64,000 bases of DNA, from the NCBI GenBank assembly GCA_021234155.1, contig JAJEKV010000003.1, forward strand, positions 21,498,386-21,562,385, written 5' to 3'. The DNA is from Isoetes taiwanensis (Eukaryota > Streptophyta > Lycopodiopsida > Isoetales > Isoetaceae). A program made the position numbers and the translations under genes. Below are positions 7,491 to 28,924 of this stretch, piece after piece (the stretch's first letter is position 1; each line of letters opens with the position of its first letter). The notes beneath the pieces were generated by a model. The model was not told the origin of the DNA. It searched no databases and was given only the letters and a program-made list of their open reading frames with translations.

Positions 7491-7651
7491 CCGACTAACC
7501 ACAGGAGGATGCATTTGAACCGCATCTCCAGGGCCTTAGACCTAGCCTGATCTATATACAACATTCGAAGAAAACATTCCAAGAAAAAACACACCTAAAA
7601 CGGAACTGTTCACGTTTACCCCCGATCCATTGTTTCCGTGCCGAGCATCTC

Positions 7652-8098
7652 TCAACCCAGAGAGTAATTCATCTCTCGAAGCTGAAAAATGCTCGACAAG
7701 GAAACATTAAATCCGTCGAGCTTATGAGCAGTCCCATGATCTAAGCACGGACGGCATGTTCTACACACAAAATAACAGGCATCTCTGAAACTCACCTCTT
7801 CACGCAGTAATTCCTTGGGCCATTGTATGACAGATCCCGCAGCCTCACCGAGAGTCTTTGCTTCTTCTGTCGGTCTCATCAAGAGTGCATTCGCATCTAA
7901 TACTTGTATCAATGCGATTCTCGTGTATCCCCGTTCCATGGCGCTGCAGTGTAGCATTCCCGTGTCTGGCAGCTCCTCTCCGCTTGCTACCTTAGCTCCG
8001 TGCTCATCGATCAAATCAACTACTTGCAATAAGACGCGCGGTTAGAAAAAATACACAGAGCAAGGCGCTGTGAGGAGCTTACCGCGTCGTGGCGCCAT
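7652..8098 (-). CDS. DUF8039-like small protein, three exons, copy A
   Basis: The proposed model has exon 1 at 8098-8083 (ATG GCG CCA), exon 2 at 8022-7796 and exon 3 at 7681-7652. Both introns are GT-AG and all phases match, giving 90 residues. Exon 2 contains GAKVASGEELPDTGMLHC, GYTRIALIQVL and AKTLGEAAGSVIQWPKELL. The order (VA.G, then IH-like, Y.R, then A.G..I.WPK) resembles the DUF8039 domain found in plant transposon-encoded proteins. Copy B has the same structure with only a few substitutions, so the frame is maintained. It is divergent from the ParB-like gene across a 291-bp spacer. Function is unknown; a DNA-binding or accessory role for the element is a guess. The family call is from motif memory. 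Confidence 0.6.
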
Positions 8099-8389
8099 TC
8101 CGGAAGTCGCTTACAGTCGATGCTCGCCTCCCAACTCTAAGTCGCCAATGCCGCAGTGAAGATAAGCTACACTGCGCTCACTAAGTCCCTGGATGTGATT
8201 CAATTTCGAAATGGTGTTTGGGCGGGCTAAAGCCGACCGTGCTGTACCCTTAGCCCGCTTTTTTTCTTAAATGATTGTATGTCCTTAAATTCAAATTTAA
8301 GAACACGCCCGACCTTTTTTACGTGCAGTCCTAAAACCTCCAAGGCGCGGAGGAGGCTTAATTTACAGAAGGGTTCGAGCAGGAAGAAG
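8099..8389. promoter_or_regulatory. Divergent intergenic promoter region, copy A
   Basis: This 291-bp spacer separates the ATG of the minus-strand DUF8039-like gene (8098) from the ATG of the plus-strand ParB-like gene (8390). It contains a near-perfect AT palindrome, CTTAAATTCAAATTTAAG (8284-8301), and a GGGCGGGCTAAAGC/TTAGCCCGC inverted pair (about 8220-8260). The copy B spacer (18,759-19,048) keeps both. A shared bidirectional promoter is inferred from the layout. Confidence 0.45.
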
Positions 8390-9702: not shown

Positions 9703-10277
9703 GTAAATAACTCTCTGATTCGGTGATTTCCCGACTCGCGAGTCGAGAAAGCCCTAGCATCCTATCATTTCCGGATTTTCACTGGTGTTTCTCGACTCGC
9801 GAGTCGAGAAAGCCAGGGGAACACAGAAAAATCAAAGGATGCGGAGCTTTCTCGACTCGCGAGTCGAGAAAACCCGCTGAAGTAAAAGGAAATTAAACAT
9901 TAAAGGGACTTTCTCGACTCGCGAGTCGAGAATCCCCGGGGCGGTAAAGAACATTCGAGATTAATGGTCGACGACTGAAAGCATCGAGCCTTCCCATCCT
10001 TTCTTCCTCGGCCTCTTTGGGCAATGTCGCTTAGTTTCTATTCTAAGTTGCATCGTTCGAAGAGGCGCGGCAAGAAAGGATTTGGGAATGAGCGGTGCTT
10101 TCAGTCTGGCCGTCACTCTCGCACCATGTTCTCTCCTCTCCCGAGGGTATTCTCGACTCGCGAGTCGAGAAAGTCCCTTGAATCTTCTCCTTGTGCTCCT
10201 CTCACTTTCTCGACTCGCGAGTCGAGAAACCCAAGGGTAAAAGAGAGAACATTGGAGATTAATGGCTGAAGAGCAAA
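9703..10277 (+). repeat. Intron with six palindromes and one long hairpin, truncated at the duplication joint, copy A
   Basis: Copies of the TCTCGACTCGCGAGTCGAGA palindrome lie at 9730-9750 (5' arm partly lost), 9788-9811, 9848-9871, 9910-9932, 10150-10171 and 10206-10229. Between them a ~50-nt-arm foldback (about 9977-10,103) pairs GAAAGCATCGAGCCTTCCCA with its near complement. Identity with copy B (20,363-20,940) ends at about 10,277. Confidence 0.75.
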
Positions 10278-10455
10278 ATCATGTTAGCTTACTGGTTAGA
10301 TTGGTTAAAGTAGTCTTATTAGAATATTGATTTATTTTGGTAGAGGTTCGAGCCCCCGTATTTCATATTCTAAAACCTAGGCAAAGCCGTATAGAGGCCC
10401 CATATTCCATCAAAACCATAGGCAAACTCTTATTTGACATTTCAAAATAATAGTT
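10278..10455 (+). other. Duplication-junction filler with tRNA-like (SINE-like) motif
   Basis: Sequence found nowhere else in the window joins the broken ParB-like intron of copy A to the gypsy pol of copy B. It contains an A-box-like TTAGCTTACTGGTTAG (about 10,283) and a canonical B box GGTTCGAGCCC (about 10,346). Its right end abuts the gypsy RT frame (VPLIPELLEQLKG) at about 10,456. It may be a SINE or LTR fragment inserted at, or used during, the rearrangement. Confidence 0.45.
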
Positions 10456-11728
10456 GTCCCTCTGATTCCAGAGTTACTTGAGCAGCTAAAAGGTGTATGA
10501 TACTTCACGAAAATTGATCTTCGAGATGCCTACAATCTTATCCGGATTAGGGAAGGTGATGAGTAGAAGACAGCATTTCGAACTCAGTATGGTCATTTTG
10601 AGTATACCATCATGCCTTTCGGCCTTACCAATGCTCCGGCGGCCTTTCAAGACATGGCTAATGATGTTTTTTGGGAGTTTATTGGATATTTTTGTTGTCA
10701 TCTACCTGGATGATATTCTGGTTTATTCGAAGACTTTAGAGGAGCATGAAGAACATGTCTTGAAGGTCCTTCAGAAGTTATGAGAACATGGACTTTATGC
10801 CAATTTGGAGAAGTGTCAGTTCGAGCAGGACAATGTCGAGTTTCTTGGCTATCGCATCACACCTCAGATTGTTTCCATGGATCCAGAGAAGGTCAGCACA
10901 ATTCTTGATTGGAAAACACCTTCCTCGGTTAAAGATGTACAGTGCTTCTTGCGGTTTGCCAATTTTTATCGCCGCTTCATCAAGGACTATTCATCGATCA
11001 TCTTGCCTTTGACACGTCTCACCAGGAAGGATGTTACTTTTGAATGGACAATTGAAGCAGAATCAATATTCATCACTCTGAAGCGTGCTTTTACAGCAGC
11101 ACCTGTTCTTGCACACTCGAATCGTAAGCATCCCTATATTCTCGAAGCTGATGCATCAGATTTTGCTCTTGGCAGCATCTTGCCAGAAGAGGTGGATGAT
11201 CATGAACTGCACCCGATCGCTTATCATTCTCGAAAGTTCCAGGCTGCAGAGATCAACTATTCTATTTATGATAAGGAACTTTTGGCGATTGTTGACTCTT
11301 TTCAAGAGTGGCGACGATTTCTTGAAGGTTCTCCTCATAAGGTAACTGTGTATACGGACCATCGCAACCTGGAATATTTTCAGTCTGCTCGAGTTCTTAG
11401 GCTCGATGGCATATACAGGTGCTATCCCGCTTTGATTTAGTTCATCAAATTTCGGCCTGGCACGCTTCAAGAGAAACTAGATGCTCTTCCTCGCAGAAAT
11501 TATTTCGAACATAAAAAGGGAGGGGGAGGGGGGAGGGAGCCAGCATTTGATCAACAATCACAAGTTATTCTAGGACCTGATCGTTTATAGCATATGACTA
11601 TCACTTTGTTCGAGACGCCTCATGATACATCCTTGTTGGAGTCTGTTCGAGCATCTCTTCCTTCTGATCCATGGGCGCATGATGTAATATCACATCTTGG
11701 CTCAGCATTATCTTCTCGACAAATGAGG
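10456..11728 (+). pseudogene. Ty3/gypsy pol fragment (RT and RNase H), copy B
   Basis: Same pol segment as at position 1 but with a longer 5' side: PELLEQLKG, then [18 protein letters not shown] with an internal stop where relatives have Trp, then [17 protein letters not shown]. It shares the frameshift after NDVF and the TGA before EHGLY with copy A, so these lesions predate the duplication. RNase H (ADASD, DKELLAI, YTDHRNL) is readable to 11,440. Pol continues to the TTGG target site at 11,729-11,732 and resumes at 26,491. Confidence 0.9.
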
Positions 11729-11732
11729 TTGG

Positions 11733-11810
11733 AAGTCGTATTTAATTAAAGTGGGACAAATCTTGAATTTTGGGACTCGGACTGAAAATGGGACTCACAC
11801 CCCATAAATT
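11733..11810 (+). repeat. Left TIR and subterminal GGGACT repeats, copy B
   Basis: 25-bp TIR (11,733-11,757) followed by three GGGAC(T) motifs within 70 bp (GTGGGAC, TTGGGACTC, ATGGGACTC). The right end, read on the other strand, begins GTGGGACTC and repeats GTGGGA shortly after, so a short subterminal motif is shared by both ends. Confidence 0.8.
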
Positions 11811-11928
11811 TTTTTTTTGAATTGATTGCTTGAATAGAATTACACATCACACACAAAGAATTGGGTTACTTGTTTTCCTCATAAATTTTACAAACCACTA
11901 GTTGAGAAAGTTTTCAAGCTTCTCAATA

Positions 11929-14887
11929 TTATCTACCCTCATACAATGATATAGCATGGAGGTTGCTCATGGCTTTGTCCATCTCCCTTTTTGGGATCTT
12001 GTGTGTGTTGTCCTTTGCAGTGTGAGAACTTGGATATGACAATACCACACACTCCACCAATTCCCTCCTTTGAGGATCAGCATAATTTGCCCTCCACTTC
12101 TTCTCCCAGCAGTCGGTGTATTGCTCCTTCAAGTTGCCCTTCTTGTGTCTCCCAATGGGCTCCCAATATTGAATTTGGAATCCAGGACGCAACTCCTCTC
12201 CATCAGGCATAGTGGTGGTTACTTCAGAGAGTGCCACCCCTAACCATATTGGACAGTCCTCATCATCAGGCCTTACTAGCACAAAGTATCCTTCCTTGAT
12301 ATCCTCAAAGGGATCCCACTCAGGAAGATCAAACCACTTCGGCTTTGAGGCCTTACTTCCCACAAACCACTTGGAACCCTTGTTAGGACCCAAGTGAACA
12401 TTCTTAGACGTTCTTGCTCCTTGAGAACCCTCCCATCTTGACTCTGGCAAGAACCCATCTCTTAGCTTCCTCCCACATGGTTGTTCAGTAATTCTAAGCA
12501 TGTCACAACTTTCTCCCAGTACTTGATTAGGGAGTCCATTTGATTTTTCTTAAGAGTGGAGGTGTGCTTTCCATTTCGAACATCATCCCAGTGCGTTATG
12601 TAATCCTTGATGCCCTTCACTAGTTGGCTAGAGTCTTTGACAGTCTTGAAGGGAGGTAGTGGTTTTGGCTGCCCTTTAGGAATGAGAACTTCACCAGCAG
12701 CACCCCTTTGCCACAACTCGATTCCTTGTACAGGCATCCACAACTTGTCACCTGGTCTCCACTTATATTGCATGATTGGTATTCCATCCCTAACCCAAAA
12801 CTTGAACTAAAGTGGCTTTGTGTGTCCTGTCAACTGGTCCTTACCATCCAAAGCAAGTATCCCTCTACAAATGATTTCCAATGCAACCTCATCCATCAAG
12901 AAAGCCATTGGGTTGGGGTCAATGCAGCTCTCAAACACATCCATTAGTTCGGAAGACTAGTCACGTTTTCTCTCTTGAGCTTGGTGGAGAAAGTTCCAAA
13001 GAATCCATCTATATCATCATGCGTTATGCCCAACCATCATGAATCCCACTTTCACAACTTTGAATACTCCCACCGCCAAGTATGACATTGCCCCAAACAT
13101 CCATCTATTCTTGTTTTCTTTCCAACAGCTTGTCCAATTGAACACATAGCTCCTCGGCGTTGGTTTCTCAAGTAAGGGAAAATCATCCCAAGTCCTCCTT
13201 GATTCACTAGACACCTTGGATGTGAGCTTTTTTATCCGCCTTTGGTAACAAAGCGGTTGATCATCCATCAAAGCCTCAAAATGGGTGTGAAGGGGAATAC
13301 CTCCTCCTTCTATCGATCCTTTCTCTAGTGTTCTCAAGCACTTGAAAATAGAGCTCACATGGAAGTTTGGATCATCCCTCCATAGATCAAGCACAAAATA
13401 ACCATATGTTCCAGTTCCATGACCATGTGTTAAGGCACCCGCCAGACTTACTTTCATCTGAAAAGCGTTTTGACAACGCTTGGGTAAAGGATCTAGCTTT
13501 GGCAAGAAAGTCTTGTGTTGGTCCATCTTATCATGAATTATACACAAAAATTTGTCCGGCTGCATCTCAGAAAATGTTCTCCACTGCCAATACAACTGTC
13601 TACATGATATTTGGTCCCTTTGGTGATCTGCAAATTGCTCCCGAATTGCCATTCTTTCTTTCTCTATTGCAGTTGATGCAAGTGTATCCTTGAGTTGAAT
13701 GCAAGTGTTGCACTTTGAGAATGGCATGTGTTGCGTGACACTCACGCCCGAGAAGTGAGTGCTCCATAAACTTGCTGAAATGTGATTGAGAAAGAGGCCT
13801 ACCTCCAGTAGTTTCTAGGATGGAGTTGACCTCTTTAAGGCACTCCTTTTGGATATAGTGTTGTGGCAACACCCTTTGCACCACTCTCGCACACCGCTTT
13901 CGCTCACCTTCGACTTGTGGGGCATAGATTGAGACATGTATCTCACAAAGCTCTCAAGACTGCAATGGCCTTGAGAGTATTTGCTCTAGGTTTCAAAGTG
14001 AGTGCATTACCATGTTGGAACAAACGTGTGCCCTTTTCTAACCTGCTCCCAAGCACTGTGAGAATGAAGACTTGCTCACCCCAAGAATCCATCTCAATGC
14101 TCTCATACATACCTTCATGCCCCTCAATTGATATAGTAGCCTTCCCGTGTTTTCATCATAGCCGGAATTCCTACACAAGGAGTAGATGAAATTAATCCTA
14201 TCTTTTTGAAGTCGTCCAATGTATTGGGACCTTATCTCAGACGAGGTCATCCACATCAGCATCAGACTCAGTGCAATCTAGGTTGCAACACTCTTGTCCC
14301 CTAATTGCCTCTAGGTTTTCTTTGGTTGGGGCCATACTTTCCATCCTTTCTAAATATTTGTCACTTCTAGGCCTCTTGGGCACCCGTGGCTGCCTTTTAT
14401 GAAAAACATAGCGTCTCTTCCTTGTGATCAAAGGATGCTCATCGACCACCAAATCTTCCACATGGCCTTGGGTGGGCCTTGGGGTATGTAGTTCAGTAGG
14501 GCATTCCAGACTATCACCATTCTTGTGTGTAATATATCTAATTGGCCATCTCAACTGACTTTGGGACTCCAGCAACCCAGAGCACACAATGCAATCACTA
14601 GAGCTTCCCTGGGACATGATTGTATCAACTTCGATAAGAAGCTTCACAATGCCAACTCCAAGATGATCATCTCCCAGCCTTTCATCATTCACACTATCAA
14701 AAGGATCAACTGCAATTATTATGCCCTCTGCAAATACCGTCTCGTTGCAAGGGTGCAACAACAAGCAACCCATCTTCCTCCATTGGAGCCTAGGGCAATG
14801 GCCTGTGCTGGGCTTCCTTGGCTCCATTTTGCTCATCTCACATGCTCCTTGAATGAAAGAGCACACATTAAAACCATATACAACCAT
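11929..14887 (-). pseudogene. DUF7869-like probable transposase, copy B
   Basis: Same gene as at 1408-4346. The N-terminal frame is open across the point where copy A is frameshifted (ITRKRRYVFHKRQPRVPKRP). A long central frame (13,745-13,017) keeps CIIHDKMDQHKT, MKVSLAGALTHGHGTGTYGY and WRDDPNFHVSSIFKCL, which copy A loses. The C-terminal 190 codons (12,501-11,929), including WLGVALSEVTTTMPDG, are also continuous here. In turn it is broken at VGH(T)HDDID (13,017-13,030) and at about 12,480, where copy A reads through. Each copy therefore supports the other's reading frame, and a parental gene of roughly 900 codons is inferred. Orientation is toward the left TIR. Confidence 0.75.
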
Positions 14888-15037
14888 ATGTAAATGAGCA
14901 CTATAGCCATATAACCATTAGAAACCATATAACCATTAAAAACCATTGAAATCTTGGCTAACATTAACCATTAAGAAGCATAAAAACATTATAACCTTAT
15001 AACCATTAAAAACATTAAAACTTTTAACACTAACATT

Positions 15038-15799
15038 CACTACTAGAGGATGGGTTGTTTGCGACGTCAGTTTGCGACGTATATGAAACGTCCACATCGC
15101 AAAAATCGCGTACGTTCCCATGACGTCGCACAAAATTTAAATGATGTCGCAGATAGAATGTCCCACGTCGCAGTTGAAACGTCTGGGCAGACGTCGCAAT
15201 GGCAAAAATCGAGTACGTTCGCACGACGTTGCACAAAATTCAAACGACGACGACGTCACAGATAGAACGTCAGAAGTCACAGTTAGAACGTCTGACCAGA
15301 CGTCGCAATAGCCTACTACGTGCCACGTCGCACTAGCGACGTATCACGTCGCAAGTGCAACGTCATTAAAACGTGAAACGTCACAACTGCAACGTCTCAT
15401 TGCGACTTAAAGAACAAACACAGAATAAATACAAATACGAGTTATTGAGGTGTTGGTAAGGCCTCAGGTTTGTTAGCCAGAGGTTCGGGGTTCAAGTCCA
15501 CGAAAAAACATTTTGGGCGTACATATATGTACGTCTTAGCAACATTTGAGTGACGTCTGTAAAACGTCATAAGGACATATTTTGTACATATTTGGGATGT
15601 CCACGACGTCGCTAATACGTTGCACATGCGACGTGATGTCGCATCTGCGACGTGATGTCGCGCCGCGACGAATCCACGGCGACGTCATTTGCGACGAGCG
15701 GGAAACGTTATTCAAACGTGTGCATGCGACATTTGATGTCCTCGTTACGTCGCTAAGATGTCGCAAATGATGTCGCAAGCTGCCTATTCTGTAGTAGTG
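15038..15799. mobile_element. CACTA-type MITE, copy B
   Basis: Same element as 4520-5278: CACTACTAGA start, TAGTAGTG end, ATT target duplication (15,035-15,037 and 15,800-15,802), and dense GCGACGT/GACGTC subterminal repeats. Copy B retains more intact GCGACGTC units near its left end than copy A. Being in both copies at the same site, it inserted before the tandem duplication. Confidence 0.85.
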
Positions 15800-16450
15800 A
15801 TTTAACATTAACCATTAAAAAGCATTAAAACATTATAACCATTAAAACATTGGCTTCCCCGAATTCATGACCGTGGCCGACGCGGGCCCTTCGTCACGAC
15901 ATCCGACATGGCCACGCCGTCAAGAATCCAGTGTCACGGATGGCATGCCACACGCGTGACTCTAGGAGTGTCATAAATGCCACTTTTTTTCGAGGTTCGA
16001 GGGTGCGCCCGAGAAATAATCGCACCCTCTACTTCTTCTCCGCCGACCCCTATTCCTTCCATTCCTCTTTGTCTTCCCTCGATTCGACTCCGGTACCGCT
16101 GTTTGTTCTCCGCCTTTGGCGCTCGATCGACTCCTGCATTTCCGAAGCAACCTTATGACCGTAGCGTGGTCGACGGATCGAGACGCATCCAACGACGAGG
16201 TTTTGGCTCAATTTGAGTTAGCCAGCAGAAAGTACTTCCTAAGAAGAAAGTGAGAAACCTTTTCTGTAAGTTTTATAAAATCTCTTCTTCTTCTTCTTCT
16301 TTATATTCTTATACTGCTTGTTTATTGTTTTTTTGCAATTCCTTTACTACTGTGCTGCTCCTATTATTTTTTTAGAGCCTCTTTATATACCCTGATACAT
16401 TTTCCAGCCCGACAAATCCTTACTCTCGCTTTGCAAACGCCTGTAGCAAA

Positions 16451-17028
16451 ATGGAATCGAACTCTGCAGCTTCCTCCTCATCCAACAAATCTCCCAGGTA
16501 TTTTTTTTCTTAATATTTTCTCATTTGTCTGTTGTTTCAAAGTTGCTTCACTGCTTTCCTTTTGATTTGCTTTCTGTTTGTGCTTTCTTGTGTTTAGTTG
16601 TTGTTTACTTGAATACCTTGTACAGGCATCAGTGTTCTTAGATGCTAATAGTAGTGGCAAGCACCCGACTTAGGAATCCTGAGAGATAGGAAGAAAAGTA
16701 TTGCATAACAGTAAGAGAACTGTCTATGATTCATAAAAGAACAAATGCATGAAATTGCTTTACAGAAACTTAAAATAGGAATTACCATACAGATTGAAAA
16801 TTTCACTCACAGCATATCCTCCTTTGCAGGAGAGGTGCAGAAGGGAACCCGGCTTTCTCGACTGGCGAGTCAGAAATCCCTCAGCTTGCCAACAATCAAG
16901 AAAGTACAGGCCTTATTCTCGACTCGCGAGTCGAGAATGTCTCGACTTTCATGGCGAAAGCACGAGTGGAATGTACACTCCGGATTGTTGGTCGGTTGAG
17001 GGATTCCCGACTCGCCAGTCGAGAATAA
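16451..17028 (+). CDS. Small Ser-rich protein, two exons, palindrome inside the coding frame, copy B
   Basis: Proposed exon 1 is 16,451-16,497 (ATG...CAG|GTATTT) and exon 2 is 16,830-17,028 (TTTGCAG|G...TAA). The joined length is 246 nt, an 81-residue frame with matching phase. The N-terminus is Ser/Asn-rich (MESNSAASSSSNKSP); exon 2 reads straight through one copy of the TCTCGACTCGCGAGTCGAGA palindrome (as LILDSRVEN) and degenerate ones. No family is recognised. The open frame through repeat sequence may be chance, and copy A does not keep it. The preceding spacer (15,860-16,450) is a C/T-rich, promoter-like leader. Confidence 0.3.
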
Positions 17029-18170
17029 CGCCATTCTTGCATTCTCGACTCGCGAGTTGAGAATGTCATACCTAGCCAATGCCTCTAACCTGTCGACAAC
17101 ACCCGCTAATCCCACACACACCAGTATCGGCTCTAGTGCATTCTACAGGTGCCTGCAGACAGTCTTAGCCACTCTCCTTCAAACTATCTTGCTCGGATAT
17201 TACGAAGGAAAGTGGCTTTGACTATCCGGTAGCCTCGTCGCAGACCAATTCTTAGCCAGCCAATTCTCCATTGTATGGTCGCAGATGGCCTCTACCGGTC
17301 GAGACCGTCTCCTTGAACCATCTTCGCCGAATATGGGCGAAGGGGATGGGCTCCGACCGGTGGAGGCCTCTACAACTAACCACGTGGAAACCCGAGAGAG
17401 CAGCATGCGCATTCTCGGCTCATGAGTCGAGAATGCCTTTTAACCAGCCAAGACTCCATGTGTACTATCCGAGTTCTCGATGGTTAGGCATTCTCGACTT
17501 TGCGAAGTCCCAGAATGCATGTGAAGTTAACATTTTGCATTCTCGACTCGCAAGTCGAGAATCCCTTAGCCAGACCAATTCTCCGTGTAGTGAGGTGGCC
17601 TCCACCCGGCCGAGCCACTCTCCTTCGAACCATCTTCGCCGAATATTGCGCGGGGGAGGCTCGGACTGGGTGGAGGCCTCTACAACTAACCACAGGGAAA
17701 CCACTGAGCTTGTTGTCTGCATTCTCGGCTCGCGAGTCGGGAATGCCTTAAACCAGCCAGCACTACATGTGTACTATCTGGAGTTCTCGATGGCTAAGGC
17801 ATTCTCGACTTGCGAGTCGAGAATGCACAGAAGTTAACACTTGCATTCTCGACTCGCAAAGTCGAGAATCCCTTTAGCCCGCTCCCACATAGCAATGCCC
17901 GCCTCGCGTGCATTCTCCAAAGCCGCAGATAGGCCGAGCCACTCTCCTTCAAACTATATTGCTCGAATATTGCGAAGGGAAGTGGCCCTGACTGTCTGCA
18001 GGCCTTTGGGTCTTAGCACATGCCTCTACAACTAAGCACTTTGTATTCTCCTGTTTTTAGTCCCAAGTGCCTGTAGCCTGTCTGAGCCACTGTCCTTCGA
18101 ACCATCTTCCTCGAATATTGTGAAGAGGAGTGGTTCCGACTGGGTGGAGGCCTCTCCGACTAACCACAGG
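16855..18170. repeat. Hairpin-and-palindrome tandem array, copy B
   Basis: Five long foldbacks lie at about 17,149-17,235, 17,286-17,368, 17,587-17,677, 17,922-18,003 and 18,067-18,152. Each has ~35-40-nt arms such as GGCCTCCACCCGGCCGAGCC pairing with GGCTCGGACTGGGTGGAGGCC-like sequence, around an ATCTTCGCCGAATATTGCG loop. Between them sit palindrome variants at 16,916-16,937, 17,042-17,063, 17,412, 17,538, 17,721, 17,801 and 17,843. Arms differ between units but keep pairing partners within a unit, suggesting the foldback itself is what is retained. No protein is supported. Confidence 0.8.
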
Positions 18171-18316
18171 AGGATGCATTTGAACCGCATCTCCAGGGCC
18201 TTAGACCTAGCCTGATCTATATACAACATTCGAAGAAAACATTCCAAGAAAAAACACACCTAAAACGGAACGGTTCACGTTTACCCCCGATCCATTGTTT
18301 CCGTGCCGAGCATCTC

Positions 18317-18758
18317 TCAACCCAGAGAGTAATTCATCTCTCGAAGCTGAAAAATGCTCGACAAGGAAACATTAAATCCGTCGAGCTTATGAGCAGTCCC
18401 ATGATCTAAGCACGGACGGCATGTTCTACACACAAAATAACAGGCATCTCTGAAACTCACCTCTTCACGCAGTAATTCCTTGGGCCATTGTATGACAGTT
18501 CCCGCAGCCTCACCGAGAGTCTTTGCTTCTTCTGTCGGTCTCATCAAGAGTGCATTCGCATCTAACACTTGTATCAATGCGATTCTCGTGTATCCCCGTT
18601 CCATGACGCTGCAGTGTAGCATTCCCGTGTCTGGCAGCTCCTCTCCGCTTGCTACCTTAGCTCCGTGCTCATCGATCAAATCAACTACTTGCAATAAGAC
18701 GCGCGGTTAGAAAAAATACGCAAGCAAAGTGGAGGAGCTTACCGCGTTGTGGCGCCAT
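18317..18758 (-). CDS. DUF8039-like small protein, three exons, copy B
   Basis: Exon 1 is 18,758-18,743, exon 2 is 18,687-18,461 and exon 3 is 18,346-18,317; the lengths (16, 227, 30 nt) and splice sites equal copy A. Key residues GEELPDTGMLHC, GYTRIALIQVLDA and GEAAGTVIQWPKELL are kept; the changes seen in the coding part (for example Ser to Thr before VIQWPK) are few and mild. That is unlike the neighbouring genes, which are frameshifted, so this small gene may be under selection or simply less affected. The function is not known. Confidence 0.6.
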
Positions 18759-19048
18759 TCGAAGTAAACTACGGTCGATGCTGCGCCTCCCAACTCTAAG
18801 TCGCCAATGCCGCAGTGAAGATAAGCTACACTGCGCTCACTAAGTCCCTGGATGTGATTCAATTTCGAAATGGTGTTTGGGCGGGCTAAAGCCGACCGTG
18901 CTGTACCCTTAGCCCGCTTTCTTTCTTAAATGATTGTATGTCCTTAAATTCAAATTTAAGAACACGCCCGACCTTTTTTACGTGCAGTCCTAAAACCTCC
19001 AACGCGCGGAGGAGGCTTAATTTACAGAAGGGTTCGAGCAGGAAGAAG
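18759..19048. promoter_or_regulatory. Divergent intergenic promoter region, copy B
   Basis: A 290-bp spacer between divergent ATGs at 18,758 (-) and 19,049 (+). It keeps the AT palindrome CTTAAATTCAAATTTAAG and the inverted pair GGGCGGGCTAAAGC / TTAGCCCGC found in copy A, while short nearby positions differ. The regulatory role is inferred. Confidence 0.45.
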
Positions 19049-20362
19049 ATGCGGGGGCATACAGACATGACGACTCCGTCCAAGAAGCGAGGCGCCGGAG
19101 CGGAAGCTGGTTCTAGCGGCAGCAAGAGGAAAAAGACAGGCGCTACAGGTGAGCTCTGAGGTTTTTCTTTGCTCGGAATACCTTTACTGATCCATCTTTT
19201 GGAAGTGCAGCATTCACCGCGGACTCACTAGTGATCACTGGCCGAACTCCGTTCTTCGTCATCGAGGGATTGGAGACAGAGCTTCTTGACACACCAGCAG
19301 ATTCTTGGTGGTATGTCGAGGTATCAACAAGTGGGAAGGAGAAAGATCTGTTTCTCCACCAAAGGGATAAGAAGAGCTCCGGAGACAAGTACAAGAAGGT
19401 CGGCGGTGTGCTCTCCGTCTCAGGCGCCAAATTCAAGCGATCTAACAATGTATGTGGAAGACGCGCCGTAAGAGTAAGTTCTACCACACGAAGAAATTAT
19501 CGGGTTTCAAATTATTCTTACTCTTCAATGAGCAAGGCTTAAGGGCACCGACAAAAGGCCGGGCGCTTTTTAAACCGTCGAGAACCTTGGGTGGAAGGAT
19601 CTGGAAAGGATGAAGGAGGCCGGAACCCTAACATCCAGGGAGCTTGGAATGGAGATTTCCAAAGTCAGGAAAAAACTGTTCAACACGGGGAGCTTCACTT
19701 CCAGTGTGCTGAAGACTCTACAAAGACTCTTTCGGCGATTACAAGGGAAGTTGTGGTTCATAAAGAAAAATCTCCGGACAGGACCTCAGATGCAGATGAC
19801 ATCACACGAGAGGAATCAGATGATGAAGCAGACGAAGATATGGTCGACTCTCCATTAATGGATCCAGATGAGCAGATCAGGATTTCACAGAGAGGGGCAC
19901 AGAAAATGGAGCGGCTGGCTCAGAATTATCCGTTGGGAATATCACACAAGCCGCTCTTTGGACATCGACGCTGAAGGTTTGCACCGAGAAGCCGCCTTGT
20001 TCAACCATGGGGAATTTAATCCAGCACACATCTTTGGAGATTGAAACTCCGATGGTGCGACATCCTGTTGCAGATCCAATGCCTGCGGATGTCATACCTT
20101 TCAGCAGATCGACCGGTCAGTTGTTCAGCTGGAAGTCTGAGGAAGACCTGAAGGGAAAAGACGTCCGGTTCTGGGTAGTAGACGGTCAGCATTCAGTGAG
20201 GGCAGCACAAGTATTGCAGACGGAGAAGGAGGTGCCGCAAAGGATCAATGATAGATATGCCAAGCGAGAGTGCAGAGTTCTTTCAGCGGAGACGCCAGCA
20301 ACCGAGCTGGCCAGCATTAGCCACTGCCAGAACACAATAGCAGCGAGTGCCAGCTACATAAG

Positions 20363-21170
20363 GTAAATAACTCTCTGATTCGGTGATTTCCCGACTCGCG
20401 AGTCGAGAAAGCCCTAGCATCCTATCATTTCCGGATTTTCACTGGTGTTTCTCGACTCGCGAGTCGAGAAAGCCAGGGGAACACAGAAAAATCAAAGGAT
20501 GCGGAGCTTTCTCGACTCGCGAGTTGAGAAAACCCACTGAAGTAAAAGGAAATTAAACATTAAAGGGACTTTCTCGACTCGCGAGTCGAGAATCCCCGGG
20601 GCGGTAAAGAACATTCGAGATTAATGGTCGACGACTGAAAGCATCGAGCCTTCCCATCCTTTCTTCCTCGGCCTCTTTGGGCAATGTCGCTTAGTTTCTA
20701 TTCTAAGTTGCATCGTTCGAAGAGGCGCGGCAAGAAAGGATTTGGGAATGAGCGGTGCTTTCAGTCTGGCCTTCACTCTCGCACCATGTTCTCTCCTCTC
20801 CCGAGGGTATTCTCGACTCGCGAGTCGAGAAAGTCCCTTGAATCTTCTCCTTGTGCTCCTCTCACTTTCTCGACTCGCGAGTCGAGAAACCCAAGGGTAA
20901 AAGAGAGAACATTGGAGATTAATGGCTGAAGAGCAAAAGCATCGAGCTTTCCCAATCTTTCTTTCCCCGCCTCTTCGGGCAACGTCGTTTAGTTTATATC
21001 CTAAGTTGCATCGTTTGAAGAGGCGTGAAAGCAAAGATTTGGGAATGCGCGATGCTTTCGCTCTGGACTTGACTCTCCTATGTTTTCTCCTCTCCTTGTG
21101 GGTGTTCTCGACTCGCGAGTCGAGAAACCCCCTGCATCCTCCTATTTAGTGTTTACTTCCATCCTCTAAC
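20363..21170 (+). repeat. Intron packed with palindromes and two long hairpins
   Basis: Palindromes lie at 20,390-20,410, 20,448-20,471, 20,508-20,531, 20,570-20,592, 20,810-20,831, 20,866-20,889 and 21,105-21,127. Two foldbacks, 20,637-20,763 and 20,936-21,058, have ~50-nt arms (GAAAGCATCGAGCCTTCCCA...GCCTCTT against AAGAGGC...TTTGGGAATG...GATGCTTTC) and 20-25-nt loops, similar to each other. The exact 3' splice site is unclear; TTTAG at about 21,146 is one option. Confidence 0.7.
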
Positions 21171-22793
21171 ATTGGGACATTTACTGAATGCAACCCGTAT
21201 CCTGACCAGATCATACACGCTCGGCAACAGTGGAAAGCATTGGGTTGTCCTCAGCGTCCTAAAGGAAACAGGGCTCCCTCGGATAAGTGGAAGACCTTTG
21301 AGTCACTCTGCAGATATGTTCTGCTGGAAGGCCAGGAAGATGATGAGGGGGAGGATGAAGAGGAAAAGAAGAAGAGAACACCAAGAAAGGGCAGGGAGTC
21401 TCTCTCAGACCAATATGACCTCAATCTTAGCATTGACGCGGTCTGAGAGAAATGGACTGAGATATGGGCTCAATGGACAAGAGGCAAGCTAAAGGACATC
21501 AATGGAGAATTTCCATGCAGGCCGGACCCAAAGTTGTTCGACAGGCAATTTATGAAAAGGATCTGATGGGGGCCCGGCCCGACAAGGAAACGCTTTGATC
21601 TACAGGCGTAATCCGGATGGAACAATCTCGCTAAGGAAAAGTAGAAGCTCAAAAATGCAAGACGCAAAGGGTTATGCCACAGTCCTAAAGAGACGGCGTG
21701 CGTTGGAAGAAGGCATCACGGAGTTCTGCAATGTTGCTTCCAATGAATACCATGACTTTGATTATTACAAGGAAAAGGCTGCCCTTGATGAGGAAGACAT
21801 GAAGGAATTGAACCGTCTATGTCAACCCTACATCAACACCAAGCTAAAGCGTAACGTCAAAACCCTTCCCTTCCCCGAGCGCTATGGCAATTCTCAAGAG
21901 GAAGCTTGGATTGAGGGTGGTCCCATTTAAGGCCGATGATAGCTCCCTCCATTTCGGTAACATTGGGACACAAGGGATTTGGTGGTCCGAAGGCCTTTTG
22001 GGCCGTGGCACTATTTGCCATCAATATGATCGAAGACCCCACCCTTTTTTATGACAAAGCGACATAGAGCGGTGGTACAAGGCGTAACGGACATGACCGA
22101 CCTGCATACTTTCGGTTTCCTTGTCTTTTGCATGCCGTGCAATCGGACAACCGCTTTGTCTCCCAATGGGGGCGGTGATATTAACTTCACCAACAAGATC
22201 TTGTACTCCATATACCGAACTTGAACATGAGTGTAGACTTGGCTTGCCGAAGGCACCAAGCTTTGCCAATATAGTTTTGGTTTTGGTTTCAAGATCTACC
22301 AGAGACCTGGACAAGTGGTGGTCTAGCTTAACATCATTATCTCGACGGGTTCATGATTTCTCAAGAGCGGATGGAACCTCGGAAGGGCGGCAGATTTATG
22401 GAGGATGTGCCATCGATGGACAAAGTCAGCAATGATGGTGCGACAGGTCCTATACATAGAATTCCTATCCGGCCAAGAGTTATCAAGTACTTCATAACCA
22501 GCTTGGTCGAGGAAGATCAAATTGTATGCGAGTGGCATGTTCTCTCAGGGGGCTATGCTTTATGGAATGAAACCTATATCCGTGGTTGGAAATAAGGACA
22601 TGGTTGAAACTATTCAGTCATACCTGGATCTGCTTCATGAGCATTTCAAAGGGAGGAAGACAAATGGAAGCAGTAAGGACGATGATGACGAAGACAAACC
22701 TGAGAGCGAAGGAGAGAAACATGACAGAGAAGAGAATGTCGAAGGTTTAGACCAGAATGCTGCGGAACAAATTCTTGAGAATCTGAGATTGAG

Positions 22794-22926
22794 GTGAGTT
22801 CACTTTGCTCTCTCGGTGTTTCTCGACTCGCGAGTCGAGAAACCTTTCGGGACTTTAACTTTTTTCCATTCTCGACTCGCGAGTCGAGAAAACTCGTTTC
22901 CTATCTGACATCTCTCGTCATTTCAG
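22794..22926 (+). other. Canonical intron carrying two palindromes
   Basis: GTGAGT...TTTCAG splits an Arg codon (AG|G), so that ENLRLR reads on into DIEVNDSGSLTISS. Two palindromes (22,819-22,842 and 22,869-22,890) take up a third of the intron. This intron is the direct link between the methylase-like and phosphatase parts of the gene. Confidence 0.7.
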
Positions 22927-23879
22927 GGACATCGAAGTCAACGACTCCGGATCATTGACAATATCTAGTGATGGTTCACGTCGCGAGGAGGACACTGCAC
23001 TCCCCAAAGACAATCAAAAGCAAGACACTGCGGGCAGCCAGAAAGGAGCTGACAAAATAATGATCCCGCATATGGATCCCGATGAACCGGAAATATGGTC
23101 AGAGCCAAACTCCAACTGGGATCCAGCTGGTCCAACCAAGCTTGTAATATTTGACGTCAATGGAGTATTAGCTGCAGTATACCACGATAAAGACGTCCCT
23201 GAGCTTAACACCTCGCAGATCCTGACGAAAACGGAGCATAAAATCGTGTATCCGAGGCCTAGAGCAAAGGAAATTGTTGAATAGTGCCCGAACGGGGGAT
23301 TCAAGTGGCCATATGGTCTTGTATGGCAAAAAGAAAAATATTGTCAATGTTCTTGGTGTTCTCGGCCTTCCGGTTTTGAAGTTCAAGTTTGTTTGGGGAA
23401 ACGAAAAGGGTCGAGCATGTGTGGGACCTCGATCCAGCCATCACAAAGGGAAAGCATATTATGGTGAAAAATTTTGGGACAGGGGTTTATGAACAATTCC
23501 CGGACTTTGGCAAACACAACACGCTGATCATAGACGACTCCGCCTACAAGTGCTATCATAACTCGCAAAATACAATCATTGCTAAGACTTATCGACCAGA
23601 AGAGTATGAGACGGATAGGTGGTTGTCTTTCTGACTTTGTCCTGTCTTGGCGGAATCCCTCTTTGCCATTCTTGTGGCCGATGTGATTAGGAACTATCCG
23701 AGCCTCAAGGAACCCGATCCAGAGAGCCGCGCGATCATGAAAGCTATGGACGACAAATATTTTGGTGATCAAGAAGAGTGACCTCTGCTTTCAGATAGTC
23801 AAATTGTGTGAATATTGTAAAGAAACATGAAGAAATGTACTATGTTTTGTAATGAATATACATGTATATTGAGTTCTCG

Positions 23880-24170
23880 CTGGCTTTCTCGACTCGCGAG
23901 TCGAGAAAGGCATGCTTGTCCTGTTGATGAAACCATTTGTATGTTTGTTTGTGTGACTGGATGCAGCCATAATCTATTATGATAATGGTTGTACATTGGG
24001 TTTCCTGGGCCTTTCTCGACTCGCGAGTCGAGAAAGGCACTGCTTGTCTCGTTGACGCAACCATTTGTATGCTTCCATGTGTGATTGGATGCAACCATAT
24101 TCTAATGGGAATGGTTGTACTTTGACTTTTCCGGGCCTTTCTCGACTCGCGAGTCGAGAAAGACACTACT
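23880..24170 (+). repeat. Three ~127-bp tandem repeats, each with one perfect palindrome
   Basis: Immediately 3' of the FCP1 stop codon, units repeat GGCCTTTCTCGACTCGCGAG... followed by GCAACCATTTGTATG...GTGTGATTGGATGCA. The palindromes (23,884-23,909, 24,011-24,036, 24,137-24,162) extend to 26 bp, for example CTTTCTCG...CGAGAAAG in the first two. As the 3' region of the transcript, they would form stable stem-loops in RNA. Confidence 0.8.
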
Positions 24171-24298
24171 TTTCACGTGATTGGATGCAGTTATATGGAA
24201 TGAATGTTCTCTATTGTAATTTGATTTCACCATTCTTTTCTTCCTTTTGACTAATGGCACCGTAATTGTTAATCATAGACTCTCCTTGCTCCAGGAGG

Positions 24299-24801
24299 TT
24301 CATGCACAGATCCGACACCAGCACAGATCCCGTTCAGGCATCACAGAGACCGCTCCAGGCGGCACAGATCCCGCTCAAGGCGGAAGAGATACCGTTCTGG
24401 CACAGATCCCGCTCACGCTACACTCTTGCCCGGCCTTTGGGATAAGGTTACTCGTGAATGCAGACGCCATGCACACCCTCGGGATAAAGAAGACGCGAAG
24501 AAGTTTCATGAAGTCCAGGAAGCTCAAAGCATCTTGCAAGCATTGCATAACATCCATGGGGGTTGGGGATGGAGCATATTCGATGAAAAGCTGCGGGAGG
24601 AGAGTGGAGAAGTCGGGGACAGGTCAGCCGGTGGCTCCAGAGGCACCTCCACGTGAGGCATTCCACACTCTTCAGGTTGCCCCCAAGGCTTACAGTCGGC
24701 GTGAAGAAGCGCCGCAAGTTAATCCCCTAAGGTGGACCACCTACCACGATGATGTAACTGTAGTGACAGCAAGACCGCCATGGTCTCTGCGTCCGATGTA
24801 A
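24299..24801 (+). CDS. RS-rich, J-domain-like ORF at the right end of the TIR element
   Basis: Downstream of a possible acceptor (CTCCAG at 24,293-24,298), one frame reads RDRSRRHRSRSRRKRYRS, then LWDKVTRECRRHAHPRDKE, then DAKKFHEVQEAQSILQAL, stopping at 24,656. The second half resembles helices II-III of a DnaJ J domain, with HPRD where HPD is expected. A different frame (24,660-24,801) ends YHDDVTVVTAR, reminiscent of the C-terminal motif of PP2C phosphatases. This suggests a frameshift or two fused fragments. A poly(A)-signal-like AATAAA follows at about 24,828. The start codon is not clear. Both family suggestions are tentative. Confidence 0.35.
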
Positions 24802-25066
24802 AATACATTGTACCTATTCAATTTATTAATAAAAATTCTTTTTCAACTAAAGCTTTGGTTTCAATCTTTAATGAATTTCCTTTGTTTTAGTTGCATTGTT
24901 CTTGTTCTCGACTCGCTATCCAGGGAAAACTGGAAGAAAGCTTGGATGCACAATAACAGACAAAAATTCGAATTAAGGATAGTTTTCGGGTCGGGGTGCT
25001 CCTTTTCGTGTAAATTAACAGGGTTCCGAAAAAAAGTGGGAATGGAATGAGTCCCACTTTAGAGGT

Positions 25067-25888
25067 ATGTATACTTGGAAAGAAGGACTTTCACAGGACC
25101 AGCCTATATTTTGGAGCCCCTCTCTGATTCTGGATGACCCTAACATTTGTCTTGCCACTAACTTTCCTAAGTTAGCCAAGCAATGGACTCAACGGGGAGT
25201 TATCTACATAAGTGATATTATTGATGAATTTGTTTACCAAGATTCCAGTCTTGCAGATCTAGGAGATGACTCCAGGCAGCTTTTCAATAGTATTACTCAA
25301 AGATTGGCTTATGGAGATTGGCATGATACTAATGTTTTCTGGCACATTAATGGGTTTTGTGGTTATAAAGTCAGCTTAGCTTACAGGTACCTCAATAGAG
25401 ACCAAGAAGTTACCATTCATTCGAAATGGAACATTGAACCTGACAGGGTTCTCAGAAACCTGAAATTTATGTGGAAGAGCCCAATTCATCCTAAAATCAA
25501 AGCTTTTATGTGGCAACTTTGGCATAAAGCCCTTGCCACGAACAGTAAGAGATGGAGGCTTAATATGTCTAACTCTGATATCTGTGTTAGATGCTTGCAG
25601 GATCAAGAAGATGAAGCACACCTTTTTAAAGAGTGCCTATGGGCAGAATGGGTTCTGGAGCTGGCTGAATTTGAACTGAACATTCCAGGCCTTTCTAATA
25701 TGCATATCACAGAATTCTTCTTCCCTGAAAACCCTATTGAGTGGAGAAGATATATTCTCATGTGGAGAATGTGGAAGGGTAGAAACTCCTTAATCTTTAA
25801 GGAGGAAATTATATGGCCTACTGCCATCATTAAGCAGACCCAATATGATATTAACTGGGTCCTTGAGGTATATGGAAATCAGCAATAA
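25067..25888 (+). CDS. LINE ORF2 C-terminus with zf-RVT domain (partial)
   Basis: A 273-codon open frame, 5'-truncated by the insertion; the first ATG is only the first in the fragment. It contains the reverse-transcriptase-associated zinc-binding region of plant L1 elements: FMWKSPIHPKIKAFMWQLWH, then KRWRLNMSNSDICVRC and EDEAHLFKECLWAEWVL (a CxxC...HxxxxC pattern), then WRRYILMWRMWKGRNSLIF. The polymerase and endonuclease are missing. The uninterrupted frame suggests a fairly recent insertion, younger than the TIR element and the gypsy around it. Confidence 0.85.
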   Translation: MYTWKEGLSQDQPIFWSPSLILDDPNICLATNFPKLAKQWTQRGVIYISDIIDEFVYQDSSLADLGDDSRQLFNSITQRLAYGDWHDTNVFWHINGFCGYKVSLAYRYLNRDQEVTIHSKWNIEPDRVLRNLKFMWKSPIHPKIKAFMWQLWHKALATNSKRWRLNMSNSDICVRCLQDQEDEAHLFKECLWAEWVLELAEFELNIPGLSNMHITEFFFPENPIEWRRYILMWRMWKGRNSLIFKEEIIWPTAIIKQTQYDINWVLEVYGNQQ

Positions 25889-25969
25889 GGTACATAATTA
25901 CTTATGTTGGTTTTTTCCTTATTTTCAGGTAATACTTTGATTATGTTCAAAAGACTAAGGTGAAAGAGA

Positions 25970-26251
25970 ATGAATCTCCATGCAAATGCACTCTGGTTGA
26001 CACAATTTGGAGTTGAAGTACCAAATGGACATGGTGAAGACTGTAGCTGCAACTGCGCCTGCCTCTCTTACTATGACGAAAAAAGATACATCTTATGCAG
26101 TGCAAAAGATAAGAAGGACAGATTCAACCCAGGAAAGGCTCATTTATGCAAATGCCCCTACTGCCTTTTCATTGTAGCCAACAAGGGAATGGGAAGAAAA
26201 GACCACTCCAAGAGAGAGCCCAAGAAAAGACGGTTCTCGGGTGATCACTAA
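25970..26251 (+). CDS. Cys-rich small ORF in the LINE 3' region
   Basis: This 93-codon ORF starts 81 bp after the ORF2 stop. It has two Cys clusters, EDCSCNCACLSYYDEKRYI and KAHLCKCPYCLFIV, and a basic tail (KREPKKRR). The arrangement CxCxCxC...C...CxCxxC suggests metal binding, but I do not recognise the family. It could be an extra LINE ORF, a captured exon, or chance. No ribosome context supports translation. Confidence 0.3.
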   Translation: MNLHANALWLTQFGVEVPNGHGEDCSCNCACLSYYDEKRYILCSAKDKKDRFNPGKAHLCKCPYCLFIVANKGMGRKDHSKREPKKRRFSGDH

Positions 26252-26465
26252 GCCTCCGGCTTTAACTACTACCAGTTTACACCTGCAACTTCCATAAACT
26301 TTTAACTGTTGTTTGATTTGGGATAGTTGGTTTTTTCAGGGTCAATAACCTACCCTTTCCTAAAGGTTACCTCCTAAAAGTTAAGAGCTCTCATTGCTCC
26401 CTTTTGTACCTTTATTATACATATTTAATATACACTGCCTTCAATTAAAAAAAAAAAAGGAATGA

Positions 26466-26490
26466 GTCCCACTTTAATTAAATACGACTT
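26466..26490. repeat. Right terminal inverted repeat of the TIR element
   Basis: The 25 bp ending AATACGACTT are the exact reverse complement of 11,733-11,757 and of 1211-1235. They are followed by TTGG and then gypsy pol in the same frame direction. The inner 11 bp are duplicated at 25,051-25,061 only because of the LINE target-site duplication. Confidence 0.85.
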
Positions 26491-28924
26491 TTGGACTATG
26501 ATCATTTTGAGGTTCGAGATGGACTTCTATTTCGTGATGGACTTCTGTATATATCGACTTCAAGTTCTGCAGACTTGTCATGATTCTCCTCTCGCCGGCC
26601 ATTTTGACATTGCCAAAACTCTGGAACTTATTGCTCGAGATTATTGGTGGCCAGGTCTCCGTCACACTATTGAGACTTTTGTACGCTCATGTGATATTTG
26701 TTGTCGTGCAAAAGCTCCCAAGCACTGGCCACATGGCCTTGCCAGTTCCAGCCAGTCCTTGGAAGAGCATTTCGGTGGATTTTATTGTTGAGCTTCCATC
26801 CTCCCAAGGCCATGACACTATCCCTTTTGTCGTTGACCCTTTTTCCAAGATGGTGCTTTTTTTTTTTTTTTTTTTTTTTTTTTTGAGAGAGAACGGGGTG
26901 TTTTTTATATTTATCAAAATAAGAAGTACAATGTTTCAAACATATAAAAGATTACTACAGGAGAAGCCTCAACATCTTCATCCTTTATGCGTAGAAACTT
27001 ATTCTTTGCTCTGTAAGCTGATATATACATGAAGCGCATGATAATCTCCCATTTGGTAACCAGGATAGACAAGAAGATACTGGAAAAATAGCTCCCGAAG
27101 CTTTCTTTTACATATAGAAGAACCAAAGCGGAAGATCTAGAACCACTGAACATAGAAGGAAGTACCATAATATGAAACCAGTTTAGTTGCTGCATTGTTG
27201 GGATGCAAAGCAACAAACCCTAAGTAGGCTAGACCCACTAGCCCAGCCGCCAAGACTCCTCCCAAAAGTCTGGTTTATGGTATAAAAGCTTCTTCCTGCT
27301 CACACGATGTCCCTAGCTCGGCCCCTAGACTGATCTCATTTCCTGTACTTCAGATCCATTCTAATAATTCCGGAATTCCACAAAGACTTCATGATAAAAG
27401 GCGATTCTCGATCTTATCATGAATAACCTGAATCTTTCTTGCTAGTAAGAAAGAATGGGAAGAGTAAATGACGGAAGTAGCCAACAATTTTCAAGTTTTG
27501 TAAAGAAAGAACAGATCGCCAAATTTTACTGAGGCCAAGAAACGCCTTTGTTCAAGAACTCACGAGATTTCATTCCACCTTATAAGCTTCAGCGCTATTT
27601 CGGTGTAATCTTTGCAAGATGCAGGAAAGATTATAATGCTAGGAGCATTAGAACGAAATACCACGTTAGTGGTTTACCTGAGATCAAGAAACCGCCCAGA
27701 AGATGCTTCAAAGGCCACAAATTCTTCAGCCGGCGATGAAAGATCCAGACCCAGAAAGATGTTTGCCCTGATCCCTGCTAGCCGCTGGCTCAATCCTAAG
27801 CAGATACAGGAAATTGCAGCAGTGCCGGAAAGGTAGGAAGAAGGGCGGCCTCTCCCTGCCGTCGCCGCCCTAGCCGCAGGCGCCAAGAACTTCAACGGCC
27901 ATAGATGGTGCTATTTCATTCCTTACAGCAGTTCTATCTCCAGTGAAGCCACAACGGTTCTCTTGCTTCGAGACGTGGTTCGAGTCCATGGCTTACCAGA
28001 TAACATTGTTAGTGACTGCGGCCCCCAGTTTGCTGTCAGCTTTTGGAAGCGTCTTTTACAACTCTTACATGTAGAACGTTCACTCTCTTTGGGACATCAC
28101 CCAGAGACCAATGGGCAGGTGGAGTGCACTAATCAAACACTTGAGTAGTATTTGCGATGCTTCATCAATTATCAACAGGATGACAGGGTTGATTGGCTAC
28201 CCCTGGCAGAATTTGCTTACAATAATTCTGTCCATGCTTCCACAGGCCAGACTCCGTTCTTTAGTAATTTCGGCGTGCATCCCCGGTGGTCTTTCATTGC
28301 TCCTGGATATGACTCAGTCAATTCCAGTGCTAAGGACAGGCTCGAGAAGCTCTGCATGCTCCAGGATGATCTTCAACACCATCTCTTCCAGGCCCAAGCA
28401 CATTACCATTACCATGCAGATCAGGACCGCGAGGATGCTCCTCATTTTGCAGTTGGTGACCTTGTTTGGCTCTAGCGTTGGAATTTACTGATAACTCGCC
28501 CTTATAACAAGCTCGACTACCGGCGCTTAAGTCCCGATCGGATCATTGAACGAGTTGGTGATGCTGCTTTCCGTCTGGAGCTTCCGCCATCAATTCGACT
28601 TCACCCAGTGTTCCATGTGTCTTTGTTAGAACCCTATATGGTGAATTCATTTCTAGATCGAGTACCTACCACCGGTTGCGTTGGATGATCACGAGGAATT
28701 TGAAGTTCGAGAAATTTTGGACTCTAAGTTTCTACGACGTCATCTTTTTTATTTGGTGGATTGGGAAGGTTACTCACCAAGTGATGGAATCTCGGAGCCT
28801 ACTGCGAATCTGACTAATGCTCCTGATAAAGTTGCGGAGTTTCACTGATGTTATCCGGATAAGCCATGTTTGAGTACTCCAGCTCTAGCTCCGAGGACTC
28901 GTTGCCGTCGTAGGAGGGTGATGG
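26491..28924 (+). pseudogene. Ty3/gypsy integrase and chromodomain (second half of the interrupted pol)
   Basis: It resumes with FEVRDGL-type linker, then the H2C2 zinc finger (HDSPLAGHFD...CDICCRAKAP, 26,575-26,720). The integrase core runs to 26,857 and continues after a retroinsertion at 27,903: VHGLPDNIVSDCGPQF, SLGHHPETNGQVECTNQTLE, then LPLAEFAYNNSVHASTGQTP. The C-terminal part has a chromodomain (EVREILDSKF, LVDWEGYSPSDGISEPTANL, about 28,700-28,830), so it is a chromovirus. A polypurine tract GTAGGAGGGTGATGG (28,910-28,924) abuts the 3' LTR. Stops and frameshifts are present (for example after NQTLE), so it is inactive. Confidence 0.9.
26858..27902 (-). mobile_element. Poly(A)-tailed retroinsertion within the integrase
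   Basis: Integrase is interrupted by 1,045 bp flanked by the 10-bp direct repeat AGATGGTGCT (26,848-26,857 and 27,903-27,912). The left end is a ~26-T run, that is, a poly(A) tail on the minus strand. Excision restores the frame FSKMVLFHFIPYSSSIS. On the minus strand the 5' end encodes a 73-codon ORF (27,895-27,674) starting MKFLAPAARAATAGRGRP, Ala/Arg/Ser-rich like a plastid transit peptide, and ending LDLR just before GGTAAACC, a possible unspliced donor. It is either a retrocopy of a partly spliced plant mRNA or the 3' end of an unidentified non-LTR element. Confidence 0.75.

Follow-up and report, generated by a model that had tools for sequence, protein, structure and literature searches.

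What is the function of the second gene carried by a large DNA transposon in the genome of the lycophyte Isoetes taiwanensis? The question is raised by a 64,000-nucleotide stretch of contig JAJEKV010000003.1 (assembly GCA_021234155.1, positions 21,498,386 to 21,562,385; hereafter the window), in which we found a four-exon gene that runs antisense to a DUF7869 transposase, is repeated in the genome, is conserved in two subfamilies of the element, ends in an FCP1/NIF domain, and is accompanied by arrays of a 20-bp palindrome (Table 1). Our tentative answer, to which we give slightly less than an even chance, is that this accessory gene of a Sola1-like transposon encodes a palindrome-binding anti-silencing factor, comparable in its logic to the VANC proteins of the VANDAL transposons of Arabidopsis.

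A reading made from the letters of the window alone (the sequence-only reading) had proposed a single gene between 19049 and 23781, with ParB-like, DNA methyltransferase-like, and FCP1-phosphatase parts. Start and stop stand as proposed, with an ATG at 19049 and a TGA at 23779-23781, and the majority reading of 20 aligned sequences has four exons, three GT-AG introns, and 1,234 open codons from that ATG to that stop. The 20 sequences are the window and 19 genome copies, many of them partial; the twenty-first, L020, was left out because of a large insertion. Intron 3 splits an Arg codon in phase, as had been read from the window, and its donor and acceptor are kept in all 20 sequences. The repeat-filled intron of the same reading also exists and is intron 2, with its seven copies of the palindrome, while the strings VVDGQHSVRAAQ, FDVNGVLAAV, and NTLIIDDSAYK occur in both the window and the majority reading. 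The single gene is thus open in the majority reading but not in the window copy, which is broken by six in-frame stops and 27 counted frameshift indels relative to the majority (local misalignment inflates the latter number) and has AA as its own intron 2 acceptor, the only one among 19 sequences to do so. Other copies are better preserved: exons 3 and 4 of L024 are free of stops and frameshifts, and L018 has three stops and no counted frameshift. In L013, L018, and L020, the open frame of exon 3 starts right after the CAG codon at 21207-21209, which is presumably a stop in these three copies, perhaps because the C of a methylated CHG site changed to T.

The element is repeated many times in this genome of 1.66 Gb. 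A DNA search with positions 21556-23281 gave at least 42 matches, the window included, at 87-100% identity, and a search with the protein of the middle region gave at least 112 matches at 68-99% identity; both numbers are lower bounds, since 40 of 1,254 candidates were scored in the former and 112 of 3,139 in the latter. Stop-free listed frames of more than 500 amino acids (aa) were found in 12 of these 112 scored matches to the middle region alone, and hence the gene seems to be beyond chance. The copies that we fetched were the 20 DNA matches following the window (L001); L002-L008 overlap L009-L015 and were counted once.

Table 1. Positions in the window of the transposon, its genes, and its palindromes. 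Exons and introns follow the majority reading, and the splice-site counts take in only sequences without gaps at the site. E, expect value; TIR, terminal inverted repeat; LINE, long interspersed nuclear element; dN/dS, ratio of nonsynonymous to synonymous substitution rates between the two subfamilies.
Feature	Position	Strand	Remarks
Whole DNA transposon	11733..26490		25-bp TIRs and target duplication TTGG; later LINE insertion at 25062-26458
Left TIR, AAGTCGTATTTAATTAAAGTGGGAC	11733..11757	+	Target duplication TTGG at 11729-11732
Main transposase exon	11932..13953	-	Open, 675 aa, in the majority of five sequences; Pfam DUF7869, E = 2.8e-36
Open frame, probably upstream exon of the transposase gene	14259..14917	-	Matching pieces in L034, at 65.5% and 80% identity
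Palindrome cluster upstream of the accessory gene	16917..17822		Seven sites with up to three mismatches
Exon 1, lysine-rich N-terminus	19049..19148	+	Donor kept in 14/14 sequences
Intron 1	19149..19210	+	GT donor in 14/14, AG acceptor in 12/14
Exon 2, ParB-like block VVDGQHSVRAA	19211..20362	+	phrog_1033, E = 0.052 and 0.01; dN/dS 0.076 versus L034
Intron 2, seven 20-bp palindromes	20363..21193	+	GT donor in 17/17, AG acceptor in 15/19
Palindrome starts in intron 2	20389, 20450, 20510, 20572, 20811, 20868, 21106		
Exon 3, unclassified middle region (proposed methyltransferase)	21194..22793	+	dN/dS 0.117 and 0.131
Intron 3, palindromes at 22821 and 22870	22794..22926	+	Donor and acceptor in 20/20
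Exon 4, FCP1/NIF-like domain with DxN for DxD	22927..23781	+	Pfam NIF, E = 1.2e-9 in the full majority reading; dN/dS 0.167 and 0.140
Three palindromes downstream of the accessory gene	23887..24159		Starts at 23887, 24014, 24140
Third small coding region	24420..24720	+	Frame-broken in the window copy; found by tblastn with the open L034 frame
Right TIR	26466..26490	-	Followed by TTGG at 26491-26494

Relatives with the same domain order, for which the sequence-only reading had advised a search, are found in the same genome as a second subfamily. Its two members, L033 and L034, both on contig C976 and 98.6% alike, have some breaks each and encode the same protein with the same exon order beside the same transposase exon, the transposase frame lying on the opposite strand about 200 bp before the exon 2 match. 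Their identity with the majority reading at the protein level is 65% in exon 2, 68-71% in exon 3, and 55-61% in exon 4; as DNA, the exons of the two subfamilies are 69-73% identical. The dN/dS values between them are rough, since dS is near saturation, and range from 0.08 to 0.17 over the compared parts of these three exons (Table 1). Within the main family, the nonsynonymous ratio over the whole gene is 0.63 for variants shared by at least two sequences (295 nonsynonymous, 177 synonymous) versus 0.90 for singletons (630 and 263, respectively). By region, the shared and singleton ratios are 0.53 and 0.89 for the N-terminus, 0.75 and 1.27 for the ParB-like part, 0.57 and 0.62 for the middle, and 0.47 and 0.98 for the methyltransferase-like part. 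Judging by these ratios, selection acted on the whole protein during the period in which the elements were mobile, although the shared-variant test alone does not show this for the FCP part.

The C-terminus is FCP1/NIF-like. In the majority reading, residues 1023-1192 match FCP1/NIF (PF03031) in Pfam with 38.5 bits, versus a curated cut-off of 21.8 (E = 1.2e-9), and the phased junction at intron 3 joins this domain to the rest of the protein, both as the sequence-only reading had supposed. The FCP part had no match in the PDB at E ≤ 1. Like the FCP1/SCP phosphatases, it has the later DD motif in most sequences. It differs from them in being transposon-borne, in its fusion to other parts, and in its first motif, DVN or DIN, in which the second Asp of DxD is Asn in all 20 sequences and in L033 and L034. 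Given the chemistry of this family, little or no phosphatase activity is predicted from this change; the end of the protein is probably a pseudo-phosphatase relative of the family.

The second distinctive component of the element is TCTCGACTCGCGAGTCGAGA, a perfect 20-bp palindrome that is identical to its own reverse complement. The window contains 16 exact sites, or 27 with up to three mismatches, all within the two copies of the element, and none was found in 25062-64000 or in the two flanks. In the majority sequence of 18200-24000, all ten palindromes lie outside coding sequence. Intron 2 contains seven of them in the main family and seven in each of L034 and L033, and once the palindromes are masked, no alignment is left between the introns of the two subfamilies. 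The 24-mer TTTCTCGACTCGCGAGTCGAGAAA, which is the palindrome with flanking TT and AA, has 2,686 exact occurrences genome-wide, inside or outside the element, compared with none for the reversed control. It could be argued that these palindromes are binding sites of the transposase and that the accessory protein is unrelated to them, with, for example, a protein-protein role in transposition. Some plant transposases do bind repeated subterminal motifs, and the palindrome nearest to the right end is about 0.9 kb away from it if the LINE insertion is not counted. However, the window has no palindrome within 5 kb of the left end (the first site is at 16917 and the end at 11733), and most of the sites are located in introns and between genes, so that we consider this explanation rather unlikely.

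If the accessory protein does bind the palindromes, the most obvious candidate for this function is the ParB-like block of exon 2 (residues 353-363). The ParB-like domain of the sequence-only reading is weakly borne out: phrog_1033, "ParB-like partition protein," is the PHROGs family that matches best and aligns with the DGQHS block, at E = 0.052 for the majority reading and at 0.01 for L034, and Pfam matches at or near the same block are to DUF6551 (E = 0.16 and 0.21), DUF6371 (E = 0.2), and DUF1015 (E = 0.064). A PDB search with the ParB-like part returned nothing credible, two chains at E = 1.6 and 0.95 being taken as chance, and the first 906 residues gave one chance match (E = 1.5). Weak matches to phrog_11097, phrog_27560, and one NCBIfam family (E = 0.19) were also taken as chance. 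The protein might be part of a system of the ParB/parS kind, in which it would load at the palindrome arrays and coat the element, and the inactive FCP1-type domain would draw in or block the RNA polymerase II machinery of the host, resulting in a sequence-specific escape from silencing. The similarity to ParB-like partition proteins and parS consists of the weak profile match to phrog_1033 and the array of perfect palindromes nearby. However, the Arg that a ParB box usually carries is Ser here, the carrier is a eukaryotic-type transposon with introns, and no partition ATPase was seen in the parts of the element examined. We regard a partition-like system as distinctly improbable.

For the methyltransferase claimed in exon 3, we found no support at the sequence level. 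The corresponding part of the majority reading matches no family in Pfam, PHROGs, or NCBIfam at E ≤ 10; the L033 copy matches none in PHROGs or NCBIfam at E ≤ 10, and at E ≤ 1 its only Pfam match is DUF6620 (E = 0.27). A profile search of the PDB for this part gave a nucleoporin as its best match (E = 0.17), which is not credible, and hhalign gave a probability of 0.2%, a weak test at an effective number of sequences (Neff) of 1.2. We also built a methyltransferase profile from nine phage enzymes and YhdJ of Escherichia coli, leaving out the phage methyltransferases L044 and L046. Each of the ten enzymes, when withheld from the profile in turn, is recovered at E = 3.8e-25 or better, but the sequences from the two subfamilies reach -2.8 and -2.5 bits, and 315 of 522 and 405 of 694 shuffles did as well or better (1,000 were made for each of the two sequences, and the counts are out of those reported by hmmsearch).

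The string IVCE..LSGGYAL, previously taken for motif I, is a frameshift reading, since the window copy is without 11 bases at 22537 that 19 of the 20 sequences have and where the majority reads EWYMNGLFSQGAMLYG; the conserved string at the proposed place is EWYMNGLF, in nearly all sequences and in L033 and L034, and the FxGxG of motif I is absent. In place of EDPTLFY, the former motif IV, the second subfamily has EDQRVFY; close by, however, both subfamilies retain SSPP[FY]. Motif IV of beta-class N4/N6 enzymes (PF01555) is (D/S/N)PP(Y/F/W), this PP motif comes first and another block last in that class, as in the proposed order here, and N4-cytosine enzymes have an SPPY motif that SSPP[FY] resembles. 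Considering that SSPP[FY] is kept in both subfamilies, the middle region may be a strongly degenerate methyltransferase.

According to the accessible part of its description, Sola1-1_Ec32 of Ectocarpus encodes, opposite to its transposase, a 1,104-aa protein with ParB-like and methyltransferase domains (PMC12477816), and a methyltransferase in the same antisense position is therefore conceivable here. Compared by description only, both are large DNA transposons with an antisense accessory gene for a protein of similar length (1,104 versus 1,234 aa) with a ParB-like domain, whereas the methyltransferase domain is recognized there and not here; FCP1/NIF and palindrome arrays go unmentioned in that accessible part (PMC12477816). 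The gene would then be a true ParB-methyltransferase with an added FCP1 domain, the ParB part binding the palindromes and the middle part putting N4-methylcytosine or N6-methyladenine on the element. Given that neither the family searches nor hhalign found a methyltransferase, that the profile scores are no better than those of shuffles, and that FxGxG is missing, we think this unlikely.

We now return to the anti-silencing factor. In this proposal, the accessory protein would be a sequence-specific DNA-binding factor of its own element: the ParB-like block, most likely the DNA-binding part and perhaps dimeric, would recognize the palindromes, while host factors would be tethered or recruited by the middle region and by the FCP1-like end, which is probably not an active phosphatase. 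The purpose would be to mark the element and to maintain its expression in the face of silencing by the host, in the way that VANC works on VANDAL elements. VANDAL elements belong to the Mutator family, another transposon family than the one described here. The VANC-like logic is proposed because an element-encoded protein together with an element-specific site repeated in noncoding parts is the layout of VANDAL and VANC: in the accessible parts of the sources, VANC binds a short motif in introns, intergenic parts, and terminal noncoding parts of its own element and causes loss of DNA methylation (PMC5735166, PMC10398659). The two systems share a second gene encoded by the element and a short motif repeated in its noncoding parts, but the motif there is YAGTATTAY and the protein is another one, and demethylation, demonstrated in Arabidopsis, is for the Isoetes element something that we infer (PMC5735166, PMC10398659).

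Several points weigh against this proposal. The ParB match is weak, with E = 0.01 at best, and the single-sequence AlphaFold2 model of a 104-aa piece from the window has a predicted local distance difference test (pLDDT) score of 48, too poor for a fold search. No homologue was found among 5.8 billion proteins at the limits used (residues 250-1234 at E ≤ 10, among the 7,989 candidates with the most words in common; the FCP part at E ≤ 1; alignment A1 at E ≤ 10), and viral contigs and phages gave none either. The palindromes of individual copies have changed at about the same rate as the sequence around them (0.041 and 0.045 at non-CpG positions), which is what a population of mostly dead copies would show. 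The 20 fetched copies were chosen by their match to the accessory gene, so the share of elements without the gene cannot be read from them. Binding, dimerization, anti-silencing, and recruitment through the FCP1-like end are all steps that we infer. Finally, the nonsynonymous ratio of the linker is 0.78 for variants shared by at least two sequences, 1.46 for at least three, and 1.04 for singletons, and the FCP part shows no constraint in the same test (0.78, 0.97, and 0.73, respectively). The latter result would also fit a mere passenger, an FCP1-like gene that was taken up from the host, became fused to sequence of the element, and does nothing for it; transposons are known to pick up genes of their hosts, and eukaryotes normally have FCP1/NIF proteins. 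However, in the parts that were compared, exons 2, 3, and 4 have been preserved jointly in both subfamilies, with the dN/dS values given above, and we find a passenger very improbable.

The large element that carries this gene is a DNA transposon of the cut-and-paste type, and its closest resemblance is to Sola1 elements. Its inverted-repeat ends and the 4-bp target duplications, TTGG in the window and CTTT and ATAG in two other copies (all three copies for which both ends were read), identify it as a TIR transposon. Target duplications of 4 bp are characteristic of Sola1. The same length is given for Sola2 in the accessible part of its source (PMC3627910). In a comparison of the upstream stretches of three copies with the window, the left end was common to the window, L029+L009, and L013+L030 and was not found in L025+L032; the region of the right end is alignable in 19 of the 20 fetched copies, the exception being L023. 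The right end of the window copy is split by a LINE fragment (zf-RVT, E = 5.7e-14, with an A-run before the repeat), flanked by the 18-bp duplication GGAATGAGTCCCACTTTA at 25044-25061 and 26459-26476. At 25034-25059, an inverted repeat with 8-base arms and a 10-base loop, AAGTGGGA and TCCCACTT, overlaps the inner part of the right terminal repeat. The window also contains a tandem duplication of about 10.5 kb (1-10282 and 10275-20942, with 93-95% identity in the two main pieces), which begins 239 bases to the left of the window and takes in both the flank and the left-hand portion of the transposon. L013, without the equivalent of 13519-19672, and L024, without that of about 19075-20586, have internal deletions and look like shortened derivatives.

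Other coding regions accompany the two genes. In L034, the counterparts of the 14259-14917 frame, the probable upstream transposase exon, sit just 5' of the accessory gene. The third small coding region matches the L034 frame by tblastn at 52-60% identity in 18 of the 20 fetched copies and at 34% in L011, with no match in L023, and the window frame over its last part has no Pfam match at E ≤ 0.01. At 18317-18706 on the minus strand, there is a 129-aa frame that is open in the majority sequence and for which tblastn gave no counterpart in the stretches of L033 and L034.

The sequence-only reading had regarded a eukaryotic fusion of this type inside a transposon as novel. This is only partly so: with the Ectocarpus Sola1-1_Ec32 element on record, the mere presence of a ParB-like protein in a transposon of a eukaryote is no novelty, and its combination with a methyltransferase has already been published, as far as the accessible part of that source goes (PMC12477816). 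In the open-access literature, we found no description of a ParB and FCP1 combination in a plant transposon, nor of the FCP1-like end or of noncoding arrays of a perfect 20-bp palindrome. Accessory proteins of transposons that had been published but left unexplained, such as the ParB-like ones of algae, are now tied to a concrete candidate target site. Since intron 2 retains the palindrome in both subfamilies although the rest of the intron is unalignable between them, the function of such proteins becomes testable. If the proposal is true, the Isoetes element would be, beside VANC, a further and independently assembled example of a transposon that counters silencing in a sequence-specific way.

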